Origin: Bradyrhizobium diazoefficiens | GTDB taxonomy: Bacteria; Pseudomonadota; Alphaproteobacteria; Rhizobiales; Xanthobacteraceae | DNA length: 64,000 nucleotides | Direction: 5' to 3' | Assembly: GCF_016599855.1 (NCBI RefSeq) | Contig: NZ_CP067041.1 | Location: 3,534,001 to 3,598,000 of the forward strand | Part shown: positions 47,907 to 54,218 of the stretch, in pieces | Layout: every line of letters begins with the position of its first letter | Numbering within the stretch: position 1 is the stretch's first letter | The notes under the pieces: generated by a model | What the model saw: the letters and a program-made list of their open reading frames with translations, nothing else | The model's database searches: none | Told to the model about the DNA's origin: nothing | Position numbers and translations under genes: made by a program

Positions 47907-48680
47907 TTACGCCGCGCCCAGCCCCAGCTTCGCGTAAATCCGCCTTGCATAGGCGCCGAACGCGTCCGTGGTTTTCAGCGGAAGGTCGCGCGGGAAGGGC
48001 AGGTCAATCGGGAAGTAATCGGCCATCTTGGCAGGTCCCGCCGTCAGCACCGCGCAGTGCGACGACAGGAATACGGCTTCCTGAATCGAATGCGTGACGA
48101 AGATGATGGTCTTGCCGCTCTCGCGCCAGATCCGCAGCATCTCCAGGTTCATCTGCTCGCGCGTCAGCGCGTCCAGTGCGCCGAACGGCTCGTCCATCAG
48201 GATCAGTTTTGGATCGTGGATGAAGGCGCGCGCGATGGCAGTGCGCTGCTGCATGCCGCCGGAGAGCTCTCGCGGATATTTCTGCTCGTAGCCGGCAAGG
48301 CCGACGAGGCTAAGCAGATCGTGTGCCCGCTCGCGCGCGGCCTTCATCGGCAGGCCGACGATCTCGGCTGGCAGCAGCACGTTGTCCAGAATGTTGCGCC
48401 ATTTCAGCAGCAGCGCCTGCTGGAACACCATGCCGATGTCGCGGGTCGGATCGAACGGACTGTTGGCGTTGCCGATTGTCACCGTGCCGCCGTCGGCGCC
48501 GTGAAGGCCGGCCAGAATCTTCATCACCGTGGTCTTGCCGCAGCCGGACGGGCCGACCAGCGAGACCAGCTCACCTTCCTGCACGTCCATGGTCACGTCG
48601 GACACCGCGAGAAATTCCGCGCCGCCGCTGCGATAGACCTTTCGGACGCCTTGCAGGCTGATGAAGGGTTTTGGGCTCAT
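47907..48680 (-). CDS. ABC importer ATPase (nitrate/sulfonate/taurine-type)
   Basis: A 257-residue ATPase: Walker [11 protein letters not shown]-loop, signature [15 protein letters not shown], Walker [14 protein letters not shown]-switch VTHSIQEAV. The closest subfamily is that of NitT/TauT-type importers. Start is ATG 48678-48680, overlapping the stop of the DapA-like gene by 4 bp (ATGA). Last gene of the operon 52382-47907. It energises the permease at 51612 with the binding protein at 53214. Confidence 0.93.
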
Positions 48681-49732
48681 GCCAGCCATTTGCTCAAATT
48701 GGCCGCGACGAAGGCGTCGTCGCTGAGGTCGGCGTGCTCGCGCGTGACCCGGTCGATCTCCTCCTTCTGGCCGGGGCTGAGGCCCTCGTTCGGATCGAGG
48801 CACCACAAGCCCTGCATCAGGCCCTGGCGCCGCAACACCTCGTGGCAGCCGGCGATGCAACCGTGAAAATTGTTGGCGACGTCGAAAAAGGCGCTATTGC
48901 AATCGGTGACGCGGGCATCGAGCGCGAGCAGGTCGGTCGGCACGCTGTCCTTGTGCCGTGCCGCCTTGCAACGCTCGAACTGCTTGATGGCGCTCGCCGT
49001 CCACACCGACCAGTGGCCGAGCAGGCCGCCTTTGAAATAGGTACGCGTGGTGACGCCCTTGTCACGCAGATCGAACGGCAGCAGGAGATCAAGCAGGATG
49101 TGATCGTCGTTGCCGGTGTAGAGCGCGACGCGATCGAGCGCGCCGGCGGCCGCGACGCCGCGCAGCACATCGAGCGTGCGATAGCGGTTGAACGGCGCGA
49201 TCTTGATTGCGATCACATTGTCGATCGAGGTAAAGCGCTGCCAGAACCGGCTCGACAGAATGACGCCGCCGACGGCCGGCTGAAGGTAGAAGCCGATCAG
49301 CGGGATTTCGGCGGCGACTGCCGTGCAATGCGCAATGATCTCGTCCTCGGACGCGCTCTTCATCGCGGCGAGGCTGAGCAGGCCGGCGTGATAGCCGATG
49401 TCGCGCGCGGTGCGGGCTTCAGTGGTTGCCTGCTGGGTCGGGCCGGCAAGGCCCGCGACCATCGCCAGCGGTCGCTTGGTCCAGTTCGCGGCAGTCTCGG
49501 CGGCAAGCTCCAGCACGGGACGGTAGAGGCCGACATCGCGGATGGCGAATTGCGTCGTGTGCACGCCGACGGCAAGGCCGCCGGAGCCGGCGTCGACGTA
49601 ATAACGGGTCAGCGCGCGCTGATGGGTTTTGTCGAGCTGGCGCTCGGCGGTGAGGGCGAGGGGATGCGCCGGCAGCACGGTGCCCTCGGCAATCAGCTTG
49701 CGGATGTCGCTGTTGATCTGGCTGTGGTGCAT
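48677..49732 (-). CDS. DapA-family (dihydrodipicolinate synthase-like) aldolase/lyase
   Basis: A 351-residue TIM-barrel protein of the DapA/NAL superfamily. AVGVHTTQFAIRD replaces the usual GTTGE motif, and the probable Schiff-base lysine is in VIAIKIAPFNRYRTLDVL. The chain is longer than the usual 300 residues. A Tyr of the Y-x-N motif is not obvious (IGFYLQPAVGG), so catalysis may differ from true DapA. Its position between GNAT and ATPase genes of an uptake operon suggests cleavage of the imported compound into pyruvate or a similar product. Confidence 0.85.
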   Translation of the reverse strand: MHHSQINSDIRKLIAEGTVLPAHPLALTAERQLDKTHQRALTRYYVDAGSGGLAVGVHTTQFAIRDVGLYRPVLELAAETAANWTKRPLAMVAGLAGPTQQATTEARTARDIGYHAGLLSLAAMKSASEDEIIAHCTAVAAEIPLIGFYLQPAVGGVILSSRFWQRFTSIDNVIAIKIAPFNRYRTLDVLRGVAAAGALDRVALYTGNDDHILLDLLLPFDLRDKGVTTRTYFKGGLLGHWSVWTASAIKQFERCKAARHKDSVPTDLLALDARVTDCNSAFFDVANNFHGCIAGCHEVLRRQGLMQGLWCLDPNEGLSPGQKEEIDRVTREHADLSDDAFVAANLSKWLA

Positions 49733-49738
49733 GATGTC

Positions 49739-50560
49739 CTATCCGAATTCGGGGCCGGTGACGGCGAATGGCATTTCGTCGGACATGGCTGTAGCGGGGC
49801 CGAACCGCATGCGCTGGAACGGGCGCTCGATGGTCCAGCCCGTTGAGGTCAGTCCATCCAGGAACGCGGCCTGCGAGGCGACGACGTCGAGCAGCAGCGG
49901 TCCGGTTTCCGATCGCGCGATAGCATGGACGAGCGCCAACGCTTCCACAGCATGATCGGCAAACAACGGGCCGATATGGCGCGCCGTCCTGCCGTCGCGG
50001 ACCAATGCAATCGACCCGCCCGTTGCGAGGATGCGCGACCCCGAGCGTTGCGCAAGGGCGGTCAGGAGGGCGGTCCGGTCAAAGCCAGTGGTGCGCCGGT
50101 CGCGCGCGCAAAGCGCGTCGAGCGTTGCGGCTGGCGGCGCCGGTGCGGGGGCCTGCGTCGGCTTGGCCAGCTTCAGCCGGCGCAATTGCAGCGTCGGGGT
50201 GAAGCCGAGCGGCCCGTAGACCGCGGCGCCGTCGGGCGTCGCATCGAGCCAGCTGGTCAGGCCGTTCTTTCGCGCGGTTTCCAGGCAGGCATCGAGGAGA
50301 CGCGTCGCAAGGCCACGCCGGCGATGGCTCGCCGTCACCAGCACCATGCTGATCCAGGCGTTGTTGCCGGAGTAGGGCAGCAGCGCGGCCGTCGCGACCA
50401 GCAGCACGCCGGTGCGGATGCCGAAGACGACGCCGTCGCGCAGGAAGACGCGCCAGTCCTCTTCGGTTTGGTTCCAGTGCGCTTCCGTCGAGAGCACGAG
50501 CCCGGCCATTGCATCATCCAGGCCGAGCTTGATGACGGGAGGCCCGTCAGTAGCGGCCAT
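49739..50560 (-). CDS. GNAT family N-acetyltransferase (C-terminal part divergent)
   Basis: A 273-residue protein. The N-terminal half is a GNAT core: WISMVLVTASHRRRGLATRLLDACLETARK holds the acetyl-CoA loop R/QxxGLA. The C-terminal 120 residues (from about DALCARDRRTTGFD) form the GNAT-like acetyltransferase-associated domain seen in Acetyltransf_18 proteins. Start overlaps the previous gene by 14 bp. It may acetylate the substrate or product of the DapA/epimerase enzymes. Confidence 0.82.
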   Translation of the reverse strand: MAATDGPPVIKLGLDDAMAGLVLSTEAHWNQTEEDWRVFLRDGVVFGIRTGVLLVATAALLPYSGNNAWISMVLVTASHRRRGLATRLLDACLETARKNGLTSWLDATPDGAAVYGPLGFTPTLQLRRLKLAKPTQAPAPAPPAATLDALCARDRRTTGFDRTALLTALAQRSGSRILATGGSIALVRDGRTARHIGPLFADHAVEALALVHAIARSETGPLLLDVVASQAAFLDGLTSTGWTIERPFQRMRFGPATAMSDEMPFAVTGPEFG

Positions 50561-51584
50561 CGCGCACCTCGTATTTGGTCGGCTTGCCCAAGCTCGGCAT
50601 GGCGCGGGAGACCCAGTCGGCGGTCCAGGCGATCAACTGTTCGGTGTCGACGATCGGCAGGCCGAACAGTTCGACTGCTTTCGACGTGTTGGTCAGCCAA
50701 GCCGTCGGCTCTTCCTGGCCCGTCAGCACCGGGGCGCGGCCGAAGCGGGCGCCGAATTTCTGCGCGAGGTCGCGCACCGCCAAGATCTCGTGGCCGCTGA
50801 CATTGATCGGCGAAGTCGGCGCCGTGCAATGCGCCAGGCACCGAAGCGCCTGCGCGGATGCATCGCCCTGCCAGATGAAATTGACGTGGCCAAGGCTGAC
50901 GTCGATCGGCGTGCCCGTGAGAACTTTCGTGGCGATGTCGTGCAGCACGCCGTAGCGCATGTCGATCGCGTAATTGAGCCGGAACAGCCGGCCTGGCGTT
51001 CCGAATTTGTGCGAAAAATACTCGAACATGCGCTCGCGGCCGACGCAGGATTGGGCGTATTCGCCGGGTGGGTTCGGCGCCATGTCCTCGGTCGAGCCTT
51101 TGCCGTCGACCGGCACGAACGGATAGACGCAGCCGGTCGAGAACGCCACGATCCGCGATGAGGAGAAGGCCTGCGCCACCAGCGCCGGCACATGCGCATT
51201 CATCGCCCAGGTCAACGACAGATCGCCCTCAGCCCCGAACTTGCGACCGGCCATGAAGACGATGTTCGGCGCCTTCGGCAGCGCCTTGATTGCAGCCTCA
51301 TCCAGCAGGTCGCAATTGATCGTCTCGACGCCGCGCGCATGCAGCCAGTCATTGACGCTAGCGTCGCTGAAGCGTGCGACGCCGGTGACGCGGCGTTCCG
51401 GTGCGGCGGCTTTGGCCAGCCCCGCCAGCGTCGGGCCCATCTTGCCGCCGACGCCGAGGATCATGATATCGCCATTGATGCTGGCGAGGTCGTCGATCAG
51501 CGCCTGGGTCGGCCGGCACAAGAGATCGTCGAGCGCCGCGATGTCAGGAATGGTCTTTGGCAGGGTCTGGCGGGTGAGCAGCAT
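50547..51584 (-). CDS. NAD-dependent epimerase/dehydratase family protein
   Basis: A 345-residue extended SDR. The N-terminal nucleotide-binding motif is MILGVGGKMGPTLAGLA (a GxxGxxG variant, residues about 42-58). INCDLLDEAAIKALP and VFMAGRKFG follow. STGCVYPFV has the Ser/Cys-Tyr stretch where TxxxYG would lie, and the catalytic YxxxK is changed to YAQSCVGRERM, so the usual catalytic Lys appears absent. It may be a non-catalytic or altered enzyme. Fully overlapped operon context with GNAT (14 bp). Confidence 0.85.
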   Translation of the reverse strand: MLLTRQTLPKTIPDIAALDDLLCRPTQALIDDLASINGDIMILGVGGKMGPTLAGLAKAAAPERRVTGVARFSDASVNDWLHARGVETINCDLLDEAAIKALPKAPNIVFMAGRKFGAEGDLSLTWAMNAHVPALVAQAFSSSRIVAFSTGCVYPFVPVDGKGSTEDMAPNPPGEYAQSCVGRERMFEYFSHKFGTPGRLFRLNYAIDMRYGVLHDIATKVLTGTPIDVSLGHVNFIWQGDASAQALRCLAHCTAPTSPINVSGHEILAVRDLAQKFGARFGRAPVLTGQEEPTAWLTNTSKAVELFGLPIVDTEQLIAWTADWVSRAMPSLGKPTKYEVRDGRY

Positions 51585-51611
51585 GGATTGGTCCTTCGTT
51601 AGTTCTGCCGT

Positions 51612-52382
51612 TCAGTTTTGTCTTGCATCGCCGACCACGAACATCCGTTCGAGCGCGAGCACCAGGCCGTAGAGGGCGACGCCGAGCAGCGTCAGCAGCA
51701 CGACGGCCATTACCATCGCGGGCGTGTCGAGCGAGGACTGCACCTGGATCATGAGGTAGCCGAGCCCGCGCTCGGAGGCGATGAACTCGCCGACAATGGC
51801 GCCGGCGACGGCGAGAATGGCGCCGACCTTCATGCCGGAGAACACGTAGGGCAGTGATCCCGGCAGCTGAATCTTGCGGAACAATGTCCAGCGCGAGCCG
51901 CGCAGCGATTTGACGAGATCGAGCAGATCCGGCTCGACCTCGCGCAGGCCCCGCGCGGTGGTGAGCAGGATCGGGAAGAAGCAGATGCTGAAGGCGATCA
52001 GGATGTTCGGCAGGATGCCGTAAGAGAACCAGACGATGAAGAGCGGGCCGAGCGCGACCTTCGGGATCATGTTCAGCGTCACGAACAGCGGCAGCAGCAT
52101 CAGGCTCAGCAGCGGCGCCCAGCTGAAGATCACCGCGAGCGCGACGCCGACGACCGCGCCGAGCCCAAAGCCGCCGAGGATCTCGGCCGCCGTCACCAGC
52201 GTGTTCGCGCCCCAGGAATAGCTCGCAGTTCCCAGCGTCTGCACCGTTGCAAGCGGCGAGGGCAGGATGAATTTCGGCACGTGGAAGGCGTCGACCGCGA
52301 CCTGCCAGAGCACGAGCACGGCGAGGTGCACGATCAGCACGATCACAAAGCTGCGTGCGGTGCGTGCCCCGTCAGCTGGCAC
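51612..52382 (-). CDS. ABC importer permease (NitT/TauT-type)
   Basis: A 256-residue membrane protein with six hydrophobic segments: FVIVLIVHLAVLVLWQVAV, GLGAVVGVALAVIFSW, LMLLPLFVTLNMIP, ILIAFSICFFPILLTT, GAILAVAGAIVGEF and MVMAVVLLTLLGVALYGLVL. The EAA-type cytoplasmic loop is LVKSLRGSRWTLFRKIQLPGSLPYVFSG. GTG start at 52380-52382, 7 nt after AGGGAG. First gene of the five-gene operon, 68 bp from the palindrome at 52450. Confidence 0.92.
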   Translation of the reverse strand: MPADGARTARSFVIVLIVHLAVLVLWQVAVDAFHVPKFILPSPLATVQTLGTASYSWGANTLVTAAEILGGFGLGAVVGVALAVIFSWAPLLSLMLLPLFVTLNMIPKVALGPLFIVWFSYGILPNILIAFSICFFPILLTTARGLREVEPDLLDLVKSLRGSRWTLFRKIQLPGSLPYVFSGMKVGAILAVAGAIVGEFIASERGLGYLMIQVQSSLDTPAMVMAVVLLTLLGVALYGLVLALERMFVVGDARQN

Positions 52383-52449
52383 CTTTTGCTCCCTGTTGCT
52401 CGCGGCCTCGCTGCCACGACCGTGAGCCTAACCGGGCTTCGGCCAAGTT

Positions 52450-52465
52450 TCAACCAATTGGTTGA
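52450..52465. promoter_or_regulatory. Perfect 16-bp palindrome upstream of the importer operon
   Basis: TCAACCAATTGGTTGA is an exact palindrome at 52450-52465, directly after the TetR stop codon and 68 bp before the permease start. A related site lies before the TetR gene at 53116. It resembles RutR-type TetR operators (TTGACCANNTGGTCAA) and is taken as the operator of this cluster. Confidence 0.78.
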
Positions 52466-53113
52466 TTACGGCCGGAGCGACTGCAGCACGAGATCGGCGA
52501 CGTGCCGGCGGCGGGCGCGGCGGGCGGTGCGGCTCGACAGGTCCTTGCCGAAGATCGCCGACAGCGTCGGCGTGTTGGAGAGATAGAAATAGCTAAGGCC
52601 GGCAATGGAAATATAGAGCTGGATCGGGTCGATCCCCTTGCGAAATACCCCGGCGCGGACGCCCTCGTGCAGGATGTGGGACACGCTCCGGACCAGCGGC
52701 GAATGCATCGCCTCGAGCCGCGTCGAGCCGCGGACGTGACGCGCGCCGCCGCGGTTCTCGTCGTTCAGCAGCACGATGAAGTCAGGATTGGTTGCAAGGT
52801 AATCGAACGAGGCCTCGATCAGCTTGCGGATCGCCTTTTCCGGGGGCAGGCCTTCGAGATTGAGTTGGCGCTCCTGCTCACGGATGTCGGCGTAAACCCA
52901 TTCGAGCACGGCGAGATAAAGCGCGTCCTTGTCGCCAAAGTAGTGATAGACCAGTTGCTTGTTGACGCCGGCGCGCTCCGCGATCTCGTCGACGCGGGCG
53001 CCCGCAAAACCATGCCGGGCGAACTCCTGCCGCGCCGCGGTGAGCAGCTTGTTGCGGGTCGCGACGGGGTCGCGGCGCTGCGGCACGGTGCCGCCTGAAC
53101 GTTTTGCGGGCAT
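52466..53113 (-). CDS. TetR/AcrR family transcriptional regulator
   Basis: A 215-residue TetR protein from ATG 53111-53113 (a start seven codons upstream would sit in the operator-like site). N-terminal HTH: LLTAARQEFARHGFAGARVD and IAERAGVNKQLVYHYFGDKDALY. The C-terminal ligand domain (SHILHEGVRAGVFRKGIDPIQLYI, FYLSNTPTLSAIFGKDL) is similar to RutR-type regulators of pyrimidine use. It is flanked by two related palindromes, so it probably represses the importer operon, itself and the binding protein gene in the absence of ligand. Confidence 0.9.
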   Translation of the reverse strand: MPAKRSGGTVPQRRDPVATRNKLLTAARQEFARHGFAGARVDEIAERAGVNKQLVYHYFGDKDALYLAVLEWVYADIREQERQLNLEGLPPEKAIRKLIEASFDYLATNPDFIVLLNDENRGGARHVRGSTRLEAMHSPLVRSVSHILHEGVRAGVFRKGIDPIQLYISIAGLSYFYLSNTPTLSAIFGKDLSSRTARRARRRHVADLVLQSLRP

Positions 53114-53115
53114 TT

Positions 53116-53131
53116 CCAACCAAACAGTTGA
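53116..53131. promoter_or_regulatory. Second operator-like site between TetR and binding-protein genes
   Basis: CCAACCAAACAGTTGA matches 12 of 16 positions of the palindrome TCAACCAATTGGTTGA at 52450. It lies 3 bp before the TetR start and 83 bp before the binding-protein start on the other strand, so it could control both. Confidence 0.6.
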
Positions 53132-53213
53132 CAAGTTGAGGACGGGCTTGTTGCATTGGTAGCCTCACATCGGGAGAGCGACAAGCCGGGTCGCGGCAAT
53201 GAGGAGACAGGCA

Positions 53214-54218
53214 ATGAAGCGTTTGCAGGCGGCATTTGCGGCTCTGATGCTCGGTTTGCCGGCGACGCCGGCGAGCGCGGGCGAGGCGGTCAATTTGATC
53301 CTGAACTGGACGCCGACGGCGGACCATTCGCCTTTTTATTACGCCAAGGCGCAGGGCTGGTACGAGAAGGCCGGCATCGACCTGACCATCGAGTTCGGCA
53401 AGGGCTCCGGCGTCTCCGCCGCCAAGGTCGGCTCCGGCGGCTCGCCCTTCGGCATCGCCGATCTTGCCACCATGCTGGTTGCCAAGAGCAAGGGCGCCGA
53501 CGACGTCGCGCTGATGAGCATCTACGCCAACACCGGGCAGACGTTCTACTGGCTGAAGAGCTATGGCGTGAACGGCGTGAAGGATTTCCCGAACCACAAG
53601 ATCGGCAATCCGCCCGGCGACGCCTCGCGCGTGATGTGGCCGGCTTTTGCCAAGGCCGCAGGCATCGCGCCCGACTCTGTGAGCTTCGTCAATATCGGCC
53701 CCACTGCGAAGATCGCGGCGCTGAAGAGCCACACCGTCGACATCATCAGCGACTTCTACAACGAGCACGATCTGAAGGTGATCGAGTTCGGACAGGACCT
53801 CGGCTACGTCAACTGGAAGGACATCGGGCTCAATCCGTACGGTAATTCGCTGATCGTCAATGGCGCGTACCTGCAGAAGAACCCGAAACTTGTCGAAGAG
53901 TTCGTGCGCGTCTCGCAGAAGGCGTTTGCGACTTGCGTCGCCGACGTCACACCGTGCCTGAAGGCACTGCTCGACCAGGTCTCCGGTCTCGACAAGGAGA
54001 ACCAGGTGCGCCAGTGGGAGCGCATCAAATATCTGATGACGGACGAGTTCACGACGACCAAGGGTCTCGGCTGGATCGATGGCGAGCGAATGCAGAAGGA
54101 CTACGAATTGGTCCAGACCTATCTCGGCATGGAAAAGCCGTTCGATGTCTCGACGGCGTTCACGACCAAGATGCTGGATCCGGCCATCAAGATGGATGCG
54201 AGCAAGGTGAAGAAGTAA
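53214..54218 (+). CDS. ABC importer periplasmic binding protein (NMT1/THI5-like)
   Basis: A 334-residue secreted binding protein. Signal peptide about 1-21 (AAFAALMLGLPATPASA), then the NMT1/THI5-like fold: NLILNWTPTADHSPFYYAKAQ, GWYEKAGIDLTIEFGKGSGV, GIADLATMLVAKSKGADDVA, and IGNPPGDASRVMWPAFAK. Family members bind taurine, nitrate, pyrimidines or thiamine precursors; the ligand here is unknown. The ATG at 53214 follows AGGAG by 7 nt. Divergent from TetR, the sole periplasmic part of the importer 51612/47907. Confidence 0.92.
   Translation: MKRLQAAFAALMLGLPATPASAGEAVNLILNWTPTADHSPFYYAKAQGWYEKAGIDLTIEFGKGSGVSAAKVGSGGSPFGIADLATMLVAKSKGADDVALMSIYANTGQTFYWLKSYGVNGVKDFPNHKIGNPPGDASRVMWPAFAKAAGIAPDSVSFVNIGPTAKIAALKSHTVDIISDFYNEHDLKVIEFGQDLGYVNWKDIGLNPYGNSLIVNGAYLQKNPKLVEEFVRVSQKAFATCVADVTPCLKALLDQVSGLDKENQVRQWERIKYLMTDEFTTTKGLGWIDGERMQKDYELVQTYLGMEKPFDVSTAFTTKMLDPAIKMDASKVKK

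Follow-up and report, generated by a model that had tools for sequence, protein, structure and literature searches.

The present analysis concerns seven neighbouring genes at positions 47,907 to 54,218 of a 64,000-nucleotide stretch of the Bradyrhizobium diazoefficiens genome (contig NZ_CP067041.1, positions 3,534,001 to 3,598,000 of the forward strand), referred to here as the window. Judged by sequence comparison, these genes are one coupled unit around an NMT1-type importer of the ATP-binding cassette (ABC) class. The core of the unit is an enzyme pair not yet characterised, namely an extended short-chain dehydrogenase/reductase (SDR) and a DapA-like protein related to dihydrodipicolinate synthase (DHDPS). 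The favoured reading, to which a probability of about one half is given, is that these genes form a catabolic operon, under TetR control, for a small polyhydroxylated carboxylate, which would enter through the NMT1-type importer, be oxidized by the SDR and then undergo retro-aldol cleavage. The components of the unit are:

53199..54218, plus strand: NMT1/THI5-type periplasmic substrate-binding protein, 339 aa (PF09084, E 5e-38)
53117..53130, unstranded: CAACCAAACAGTTG, probable copy of the TetR operator in the gap between the TetR and binding-protein genes
52466..53134, minus strand: TetR-family regulator (TetR_C_29; PF17938, E 3.6e-40)
52450..52465, unstranded: perfect 16-bp palindrome TCAACCAATTGGTTGA upstream of the permease gene, probable TetR operator
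51612..52382, minus strand: ABC permease, 256 aa (PF00528, E 4.5e-27)
50547..51584, minus strand: epimerase-like extended SDR, 345 aa (PF01370; GVGGKMG; YAQSC in place of YxxxK)
49739..50560, minus strand: GNAT N-acetyltransferase-like protein, 273 aa (PF00583 and PF18014)
48677..49732, minus strand: aldolase-like (DapA-like) protein of the DHDPS/N-acetylneuraminate lyase (NAL) fold, 351 aa (PF00701; GVHTTQF, Lys177, Tyr149)
47907..48680, minus strand: ABC ATPase, 257 aa (PF00005, E 7.8e-31)

All seven proteins score above the Pfam cut-off for some family. Transcription on the minus strand runs from the permease through the SDR, GNAT and DapA-like genes to the ATPase (52382 to 47907), the TetR gene lies upstream of the permease on the same strand, and the binding-protein gene is divergent from the TetR gene. 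The coordinates bear out what the first-pass annotation had described from the letters of the DNA, that is, five same-strand genes in this order, an upstream TetR gene and a divergent NMT1/THI5-type binding protein. The NMT1-type importer that it placed at the centre of the unit is likewise confirmed by the score of the binding protein against PF09084 (131.6 bits, cut-off 20.5) and by the Pfam matches of the permease and the ATPase. The overlaps of 4 or 14 bp that it reported hold for two of the four junctions, DapA-like/ATPase (4 nt) and SDR/GNAT (14 nt), but not for the other two, where gaps of 27 nt (permease/SDR) and 6 nt (GNAT/DapA-like) are found.

The coupling of the genes emerges from their distribution. 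A search of named genomes confirmed 548 stretches, and among the best 80, which were kept, all seven proteins are encoded in 67 at E<=1e-40; several of the remaining 13 stop at contig edges. Among these best 80 of 548, the named genomes that match the DapA-like protein most closely are nearly all Bradyrhizobium. In 21 relatives of the same genus, which are related genomes and so do not count as independent events, the DHDPS-like, SDR, GNAT and binding-protein genes are jointly present in 15 and jointly absent in the same 6. None of the four was found in 14 relatives from other families, the cut-offs for presence being E 1e-20, 1e-10, 1e-40 and 1e-100, respectively. The earlier proposal that the gene set is one unit is upheld by this common pattern and by the 67 complete loci. 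Uncoupling in most relatives, which had been considered as the opposite outcome, is not seen for the SDR/DapA-like pair; it is seen for the GNAT and the transporter in distant relatives. The DapA-like gene is present in 78 of 117 genomes of a genus sample and, at E<=1e-30, in 12 of the 398 genomes of a phylum-wide sample, 8 of the 12 belonging to this genus, with the host genome included. Homologues were sought by scoring the 8000 candidates that share most words and listing 120. Genes in unannotated loci were called by scripts using open reading frames (ORFs) and G+C content at third codon positions (GC3), by which some genes were missed (e.g., the ATPase of the second locus described below, recovered by tblastn).

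The host genome is a single 7.1-Mb contig, in which the module is flanked by genes named by eye, without family search, as YkuD-like, MinC and MinD. The site is nearly empty in one module-free relative (G016), where about 0.8 kb separates the YkuD-like gene from MinC; in the present genome the module lies in an interval of 6.9 kb between the two. The same gap is about 3.6 kb in G010 and about 8.1 kb in G007, with no module gene in either, and in the stretches taken from three further module-free genomes (G003, G004, and G009) no YkuD-like gene was found.

The pair of SDR and DHDPS-like genes reaches far beyond the genus. The DHDPS-like gene occurs in 20 plasmid records, and the SDR accompanies it in 18 of them, over four phyla (Tistrella to Streptomyces, Paenibacillus, and Aquisphaera). 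The two records without the SDR are short Subdoligranulum fragments, and other Subdoligranulum records carry it. Across the 12 annotated regions that were read, the SDR and DHDPS-like genes adjoin each other or are separated by a single gene. Two SDR-less loci (L054 and L085) end before the place where the SDR is expected. No paper describing this gene set was found by a literature search covering titles and the openings of abstracts, most subscription papers being outside its scope, and within that scope no paper on DUF993 turned up either. A further SDR (56%) follows another TetR-like gene in a Burkholderiales relative (L082, 16057-18578), with no second DHDPS-like gene in the stretch examined. 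Haloarchaeal SDR homologues in L131 and L133 adjoin DegT-type aminotransferases, with RidA-type genes nearby.

The SDR is a member of PF01370 (35.5 bits, gathering cut-off 20.9) with a glycine-rich NAD motif, GVGGKMG, at residue 44. Extended SDRs are expected to carry the active-site motif YxxxK. Conservation was counted in 33 SDR and 35 DHDPS-like sequences, all picked from the collected loci rather than sampled at random. In the 33 SDR homologues, the lysine position holds cysteine in 31 and valine in 2, both of the latter actinobacterial, while the active-site tyrosine and the FST serine are conserved in all 33; the row of the B. diazoefficiens protein itself (L089) is shortened in this alignment by the end of the locus. 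The family reading of the motif is mostly Y-A-x-S-C, and three haloarchaeal SDRs also have YAQSC. The two actinobacterial SDRs with valine belong to Rhodococcus (L122) and Glaciihabitans (L127), which have in common a CoA transferase, an enoyl-CoA hydratase, an FAD oxidoreductase and a LacI gene near the pair, perhaps a variant pathway. The structure model of the SDR has a mean predicted local distance difference test score (pLDDT) of 88.9, and its nearest solved protein, in sequence and in fold, is TerB; epimerases, dehydratases and decarboxylases are among the fold matches. As in the extended SDRs and NAD-dependent epimerases of PF01370 and in TerB, a Rossmann-type domain, GxxGxxG and the active-site tyrosine and serine are present, but in the aligned homologues the catalytic lysine has given way to cysteine or, in the two actinobacterial members, valine.

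The DHDPS-like protein matches PF00701 with 31.3 bits (gathering cut-off 22.1), and its structure model (mean pLDDT 88.4) has the TIM-barrel fold of the DHDPS type. The two structure predictions were built on 25 and 24 alignment rows. The first structural match of this model is Rhodopseudomonas palustris 3eb2, with a template modelling (TM) score of 0.86 by target length, and identity to the 50 structures listed in the fold search is 13-22%. The predicted Schiff-base lysine, Lys177, placed by sequence alignment, is kept in 35 of 35 homologues and Tyr149 in 33 of 35; 135 columns of this alignment are at least 90% identical. GxTGE is the carboxylate-binding motif of the DHDPS superfamily. The GTTGE position is occupied in the 35 homologues by GVHTTQF (29), GVHSTQF (3), AVHTTQF (2) and GVHATQF (1). 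The protein thus resembles the DHDPS/NAL superfamily in its predicted barrel, Lys177 and Tyr149, but it is about 50 residues longer and has GVHTTQF instead of GTTGE. Its scores lie far below the cut-offs of all five NCBIfam models matched, and identity with DapA (15.5 bits, cut-off 206.15), NanA (18, cut-off 382) or KdgD (17.3, cut-off 373.95) is rejected on these grounds.

A lyase or aldolase-type protein beside a motif-altered SDR had been recognized in the first-pass annotation, and its two motif observations prove correct, as the DapA-like protein reads GVHTTQF where GTTGE would stand and the epimerase-like protein has YAQSC from residue 176, which does not fit YxxxK. It took these departures as signs of unusual chemistry. 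The motifs do differ, but the changes are conserved traits of the families and not quirks of this copy.

In the mechanism proposed, the substrate would be a sugar acid, a lactone thereof or a close derivative. With NAD(P)+ as acceptor, the SDR would turn a hydroxyl into a ketone, and the DHDPS-fold enzyme would form a Schiff base between Lys177 and this ketone, followed by a retro-aldol split whose fragments would pass into central metabolism. The GNAT would be accessory, perhaps dealing with a toxic intermediate or with a variant that bears an amino or acyl group. TetR, bound to two CAAC-N6-GTTG operators, would repress both transcripts until released by a pathway compound. The gene set, its coupling and conservation, the repeated palindrome, the predicted fold and the kept lysine and tyrosine are the parts of this reading that are taken from sequence. 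The class of substrate, the order of steps, the ketone as partner in the Schiff base and a TetR that binds the palindrome and represses are what we infer. A broader proposal, which is possible but distinctly tentative, is that the pair may be a dehydrogenase-aldolase couple in at least four bacterial phyla, the SDR being also haloarchaeal. The lysine-less SDR would make a ketone, which a DHDPS-fold aldolase no longer adapted to pyruvate would capture as a Schiff base and split, the couple being plugged into NMT1, tripartite tricarboxylate (TTT) or carbohydrate importers. A DHDPS-fold enzyme that acts after an oxidizing SDR, the order proposed here, is also a feature of non-phosphorylative sugar-acid pathways, for example that of uronate dehydrogenase and KdgD. 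By its score, the DHDPS-like protein is not KdgD.

The catabolic neighbours of the pair suggest a sugar or sugar acid. Genes that recur beside it encode enolase-superfamily proteins, Gfo/Idh/MocA oxidoreductases, xylose-isomerase-like barrels and DUF993 proteins, with a hydroxyacid dehydrogenase in Streptomyces and Glaciihabitans. The comparison of neighbourhoods in other genomes, which had been suggested earlier, yields recurring sugar-type enzymes together with an importer and a GNAT that vary. At contig position 2451235-2459616 (L141, 6236-14617), the host genome carries a second locus. It encodes a TetR with 51% identity, a further NMT1 importer (28% for its binding protein) and four enzymes, namely an enolase-superfamily protein, a Gfo/Idh/MocA oxidoreductase, a DUF993 protein and an isomerase-like barrel. 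Counterparts of these four enzyme genes adjoin the module in R. palustris 2.1.18 (L062) and in two Burkholderiales loci (L078 and L082), and three of the four occur in the stretch examined of a further Burkholderiales locus (L087).

DUF993 loci elsewhere have a glycerate kinase in 2 of the 6 read and TetR genes at all six. Such loci in Sinorhizobium meliloti pSymB and Chelatococcus, with Gfo/Idh/MocA and xylose-isomerase-like genes, resemble the R. palustris and Burkholderiales modules in gene content, and YTG[ND]D occurs in both the DUF993 and the DHDPS-like proteins. They differ in that no epimerase-family gene is annotated in any of the six stretches and in that the comparison of DUF993 (PF06187) with the DHDPS-like protein by hhalign gives a probability of 2.6% (E 0.017), the alignment passing through Lys177 and YTG[ND]D. 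In 11 aligned DUF993 proteins, an invariant lysine in G-[VI]-K-[VI]-S-L-L and YTGDD resemble Lys177 and YTGND of the DHDPS-like protein. DUF993 may be a DHDPS-like aldolase, a homology that the profile comparison does not establish. A passage of PMC12542648 records altered expression of SMc04132, SMc04133 and genes close to them and assigns them no function.

NMT1/THI5-type ABC importers are known for taurine, nitrate, alkanesulfonate, and pyrimidine or thiamine precursors. The present importer resembles them in having binding protein, permease and ATPase, but differs in its low scores and in the sugar-type enzymes linked to it in relatives. The binding protein stays under the NCBIfam cut-offs for taurine (TauA, 31.9 against 304.25 bits) and SsuA (46.1 against 163.5 bits), and the permease under the curated cut-offs for nitrate, SsuC and TauC, so that none of these ligands is indicated; the taurine and nitrate readings lose weight accordingly. 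The best solved relatives of the binding protein are 4nmy and 3ix1, which binds N-formyl-4-amino-5-aminomethyl-2-methylpyrimidine (FAMP), with THI5 also among its solved relatives. The binding-protein gene is duplicated in L060 (11955-12914), L085 (1740-2677) and G019 (contig 2, 47769-48779), where the additional copy (76-81% identity) lies downstream of the ATPase or nearby. By its distribution, the transporter is the exchangeable part of the system, as the pair is adjoined in relatives by NMT1, TTT (including L073 and L078) or carbohydrate ABC transporters, and the binding proteins of three groups of relatives are only 27-33% identical to each other. The type of importer is consequently a weaker guide to the substrate than the catabolic neighbours. 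Since carboxylate-type and carbohydrate-type transporters both serve the pair, a sugar acid would be, from these neighbours, the simplest substrate class.

Control of both transcripts by one TetR through the palindromes fits the arrangement of the operators. TCAACCAATTGGTTGA lies about 69 nt ahead of the permease start, and CAACCAAACAGTTG is a degenerate copy in the gap between TetR and binding-protein genes. In 66 loci with the standard arrangement, mostly from Bradyrhizobium, CAAC-N6-GTTG is found in the TetR/permease gap of 65, the TetR/binding-protein gap of 63 and both gaps of 62; across the 1.53 Mb of all 80 loci it occurs 151 times, these regulatory sites included. The TetR protein likelier starts at the ATG at 53113 than at the TTG at 53134, because the latter would place the conserved operator copy within the gene. 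The strict pattern CAACYANNTRGTTG, which the degenerate copy does not fit, occurs at three places in the whole genome. Of the other two sites, one falls within an ORF that looks DegP-like and the second separates a divergent gene pair with an ArsR-like member (names by eye); they have no visible relevance, and no further regulon member is therefore claimed. RutR (TIGR03613) is the best NCBIfam model for TetR, but with 66.4 bits against a cut-off of 368 the protein is not RutR by this test.

Several points weigh against the sugar-acid reading. No NMT1 protein is known to bind a sugar acid. The loss of GTTGE leaves pyruvate-type chemistry of the DHDPS-like protein not assured, and an SDR without the catalytic lysine could be a dehydratase or an epimerase. 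There are also exceptions to the pairing: three haloarchaeal plasmids with the SDR gave no DHDPS-like match at E<=1e-30, and L077 has the DHDPS-like gene with no SDR in the approximately 9 kb upstream and 1.3 kb downstream examined. Within the genus, the module and the second locus are weakly associated, since the enolase-superfamily gene of the latter is nearly ubiquitous (108 of 117 genomes, two of the matches being poor: G505, 49% with a stop, and G514, a fragment); it is present in 75 of 78 module-bearing and 33 of 39 module-free genomes (Fisher p 0.058). CAAC-N6-GTTG is absent from the 19.5 kb examined at the second locus, so that the palindrome gives no sign of shared control. Finally, the major facilitator superfamily (MFS) genes that adjoin the pair in two actinobacteria are uninformative on substrate class.

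Some of these points favour a non-oxidative SDR, an epimerase, dehydratase or decarboxylase with bound NAD that acts on the substrate ahead of the aldolase to make it ready for cleavage, with the loss of the lysine reflecting this role. Such an enzyme is a doubtful but serious candidate, given the cysteine or valine at the lysine position, shared as cysteine by the haloarchaeal SDRs, and the enzyme classes among the fold matches; the invariant tyrosine and FST serine argue against it, as does TerB, described as an NADP-dependent oxidoreductase. A substrate of the kind handled by ThiY-type binding proteins and RutR-like regulators, a nitrogen heterocycle or a pyrimidine-like compound that the enzymes would degrade or salvage, is unlikely. 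The kinship of the binding protein with 3ix1 and THI5 and the rank of RutR among the TetR models agree with it, but the TetR score is far from that of RutR, sugar-type enzymes and no pyrimidine or thiamine genes recur in the annotated regions read, and carbohydrate ABC or TTT transporters adjoin the pair in distant relatives.

The GNAT bears on a further alternative, an amino-sugar-like substrate whose amine must be acetylated. This protein matches its two GNAT models in two separate stretches. It is found in all 16 SDR-bearing genomes among the 22 of the genus searched, host included, and adjoins the SDR in Aquisphaera; in 2 of 3 haloarchaeal loci, the SDR has DegT-type aminotransferases beside it and a RidA-type gene nearby. 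Among the three enzymes, however, the GNAT has diverged most (35-88% identity), and of 11 pair-bearing plasmid loci (L119-L129) 7 yielded no GNAT homologue at E<=1e-6, for which reason it looks accessory. An obligatory acetylation is accordingly improbable, and the modifying role given to the GNAT in the first-pass annotation is not sustained as a central one. That an importer and unrelated enzymes have come together by chance is very improbable. The swapping of transporter lineages among relatives would be compatible with it, but it is largely refuted by the co-occurrence of the module genes, four of which share one pattern in 21 genomes, and the paired palindromes and the nearly empty site also oppose it.

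Should the sugar-acid reading be true, the annotations "epimerase" and "dihydrodipicolinate synthase family", both widespread, would mask one catabolic pair of steps. Some NMT1 importers would carry sugar acids, and genes for such importers in soil bacteria would be read differently. The module would then offer a compact pathway that lends itself to direct testing, with an SDR motif that is non-standard yet conserved.

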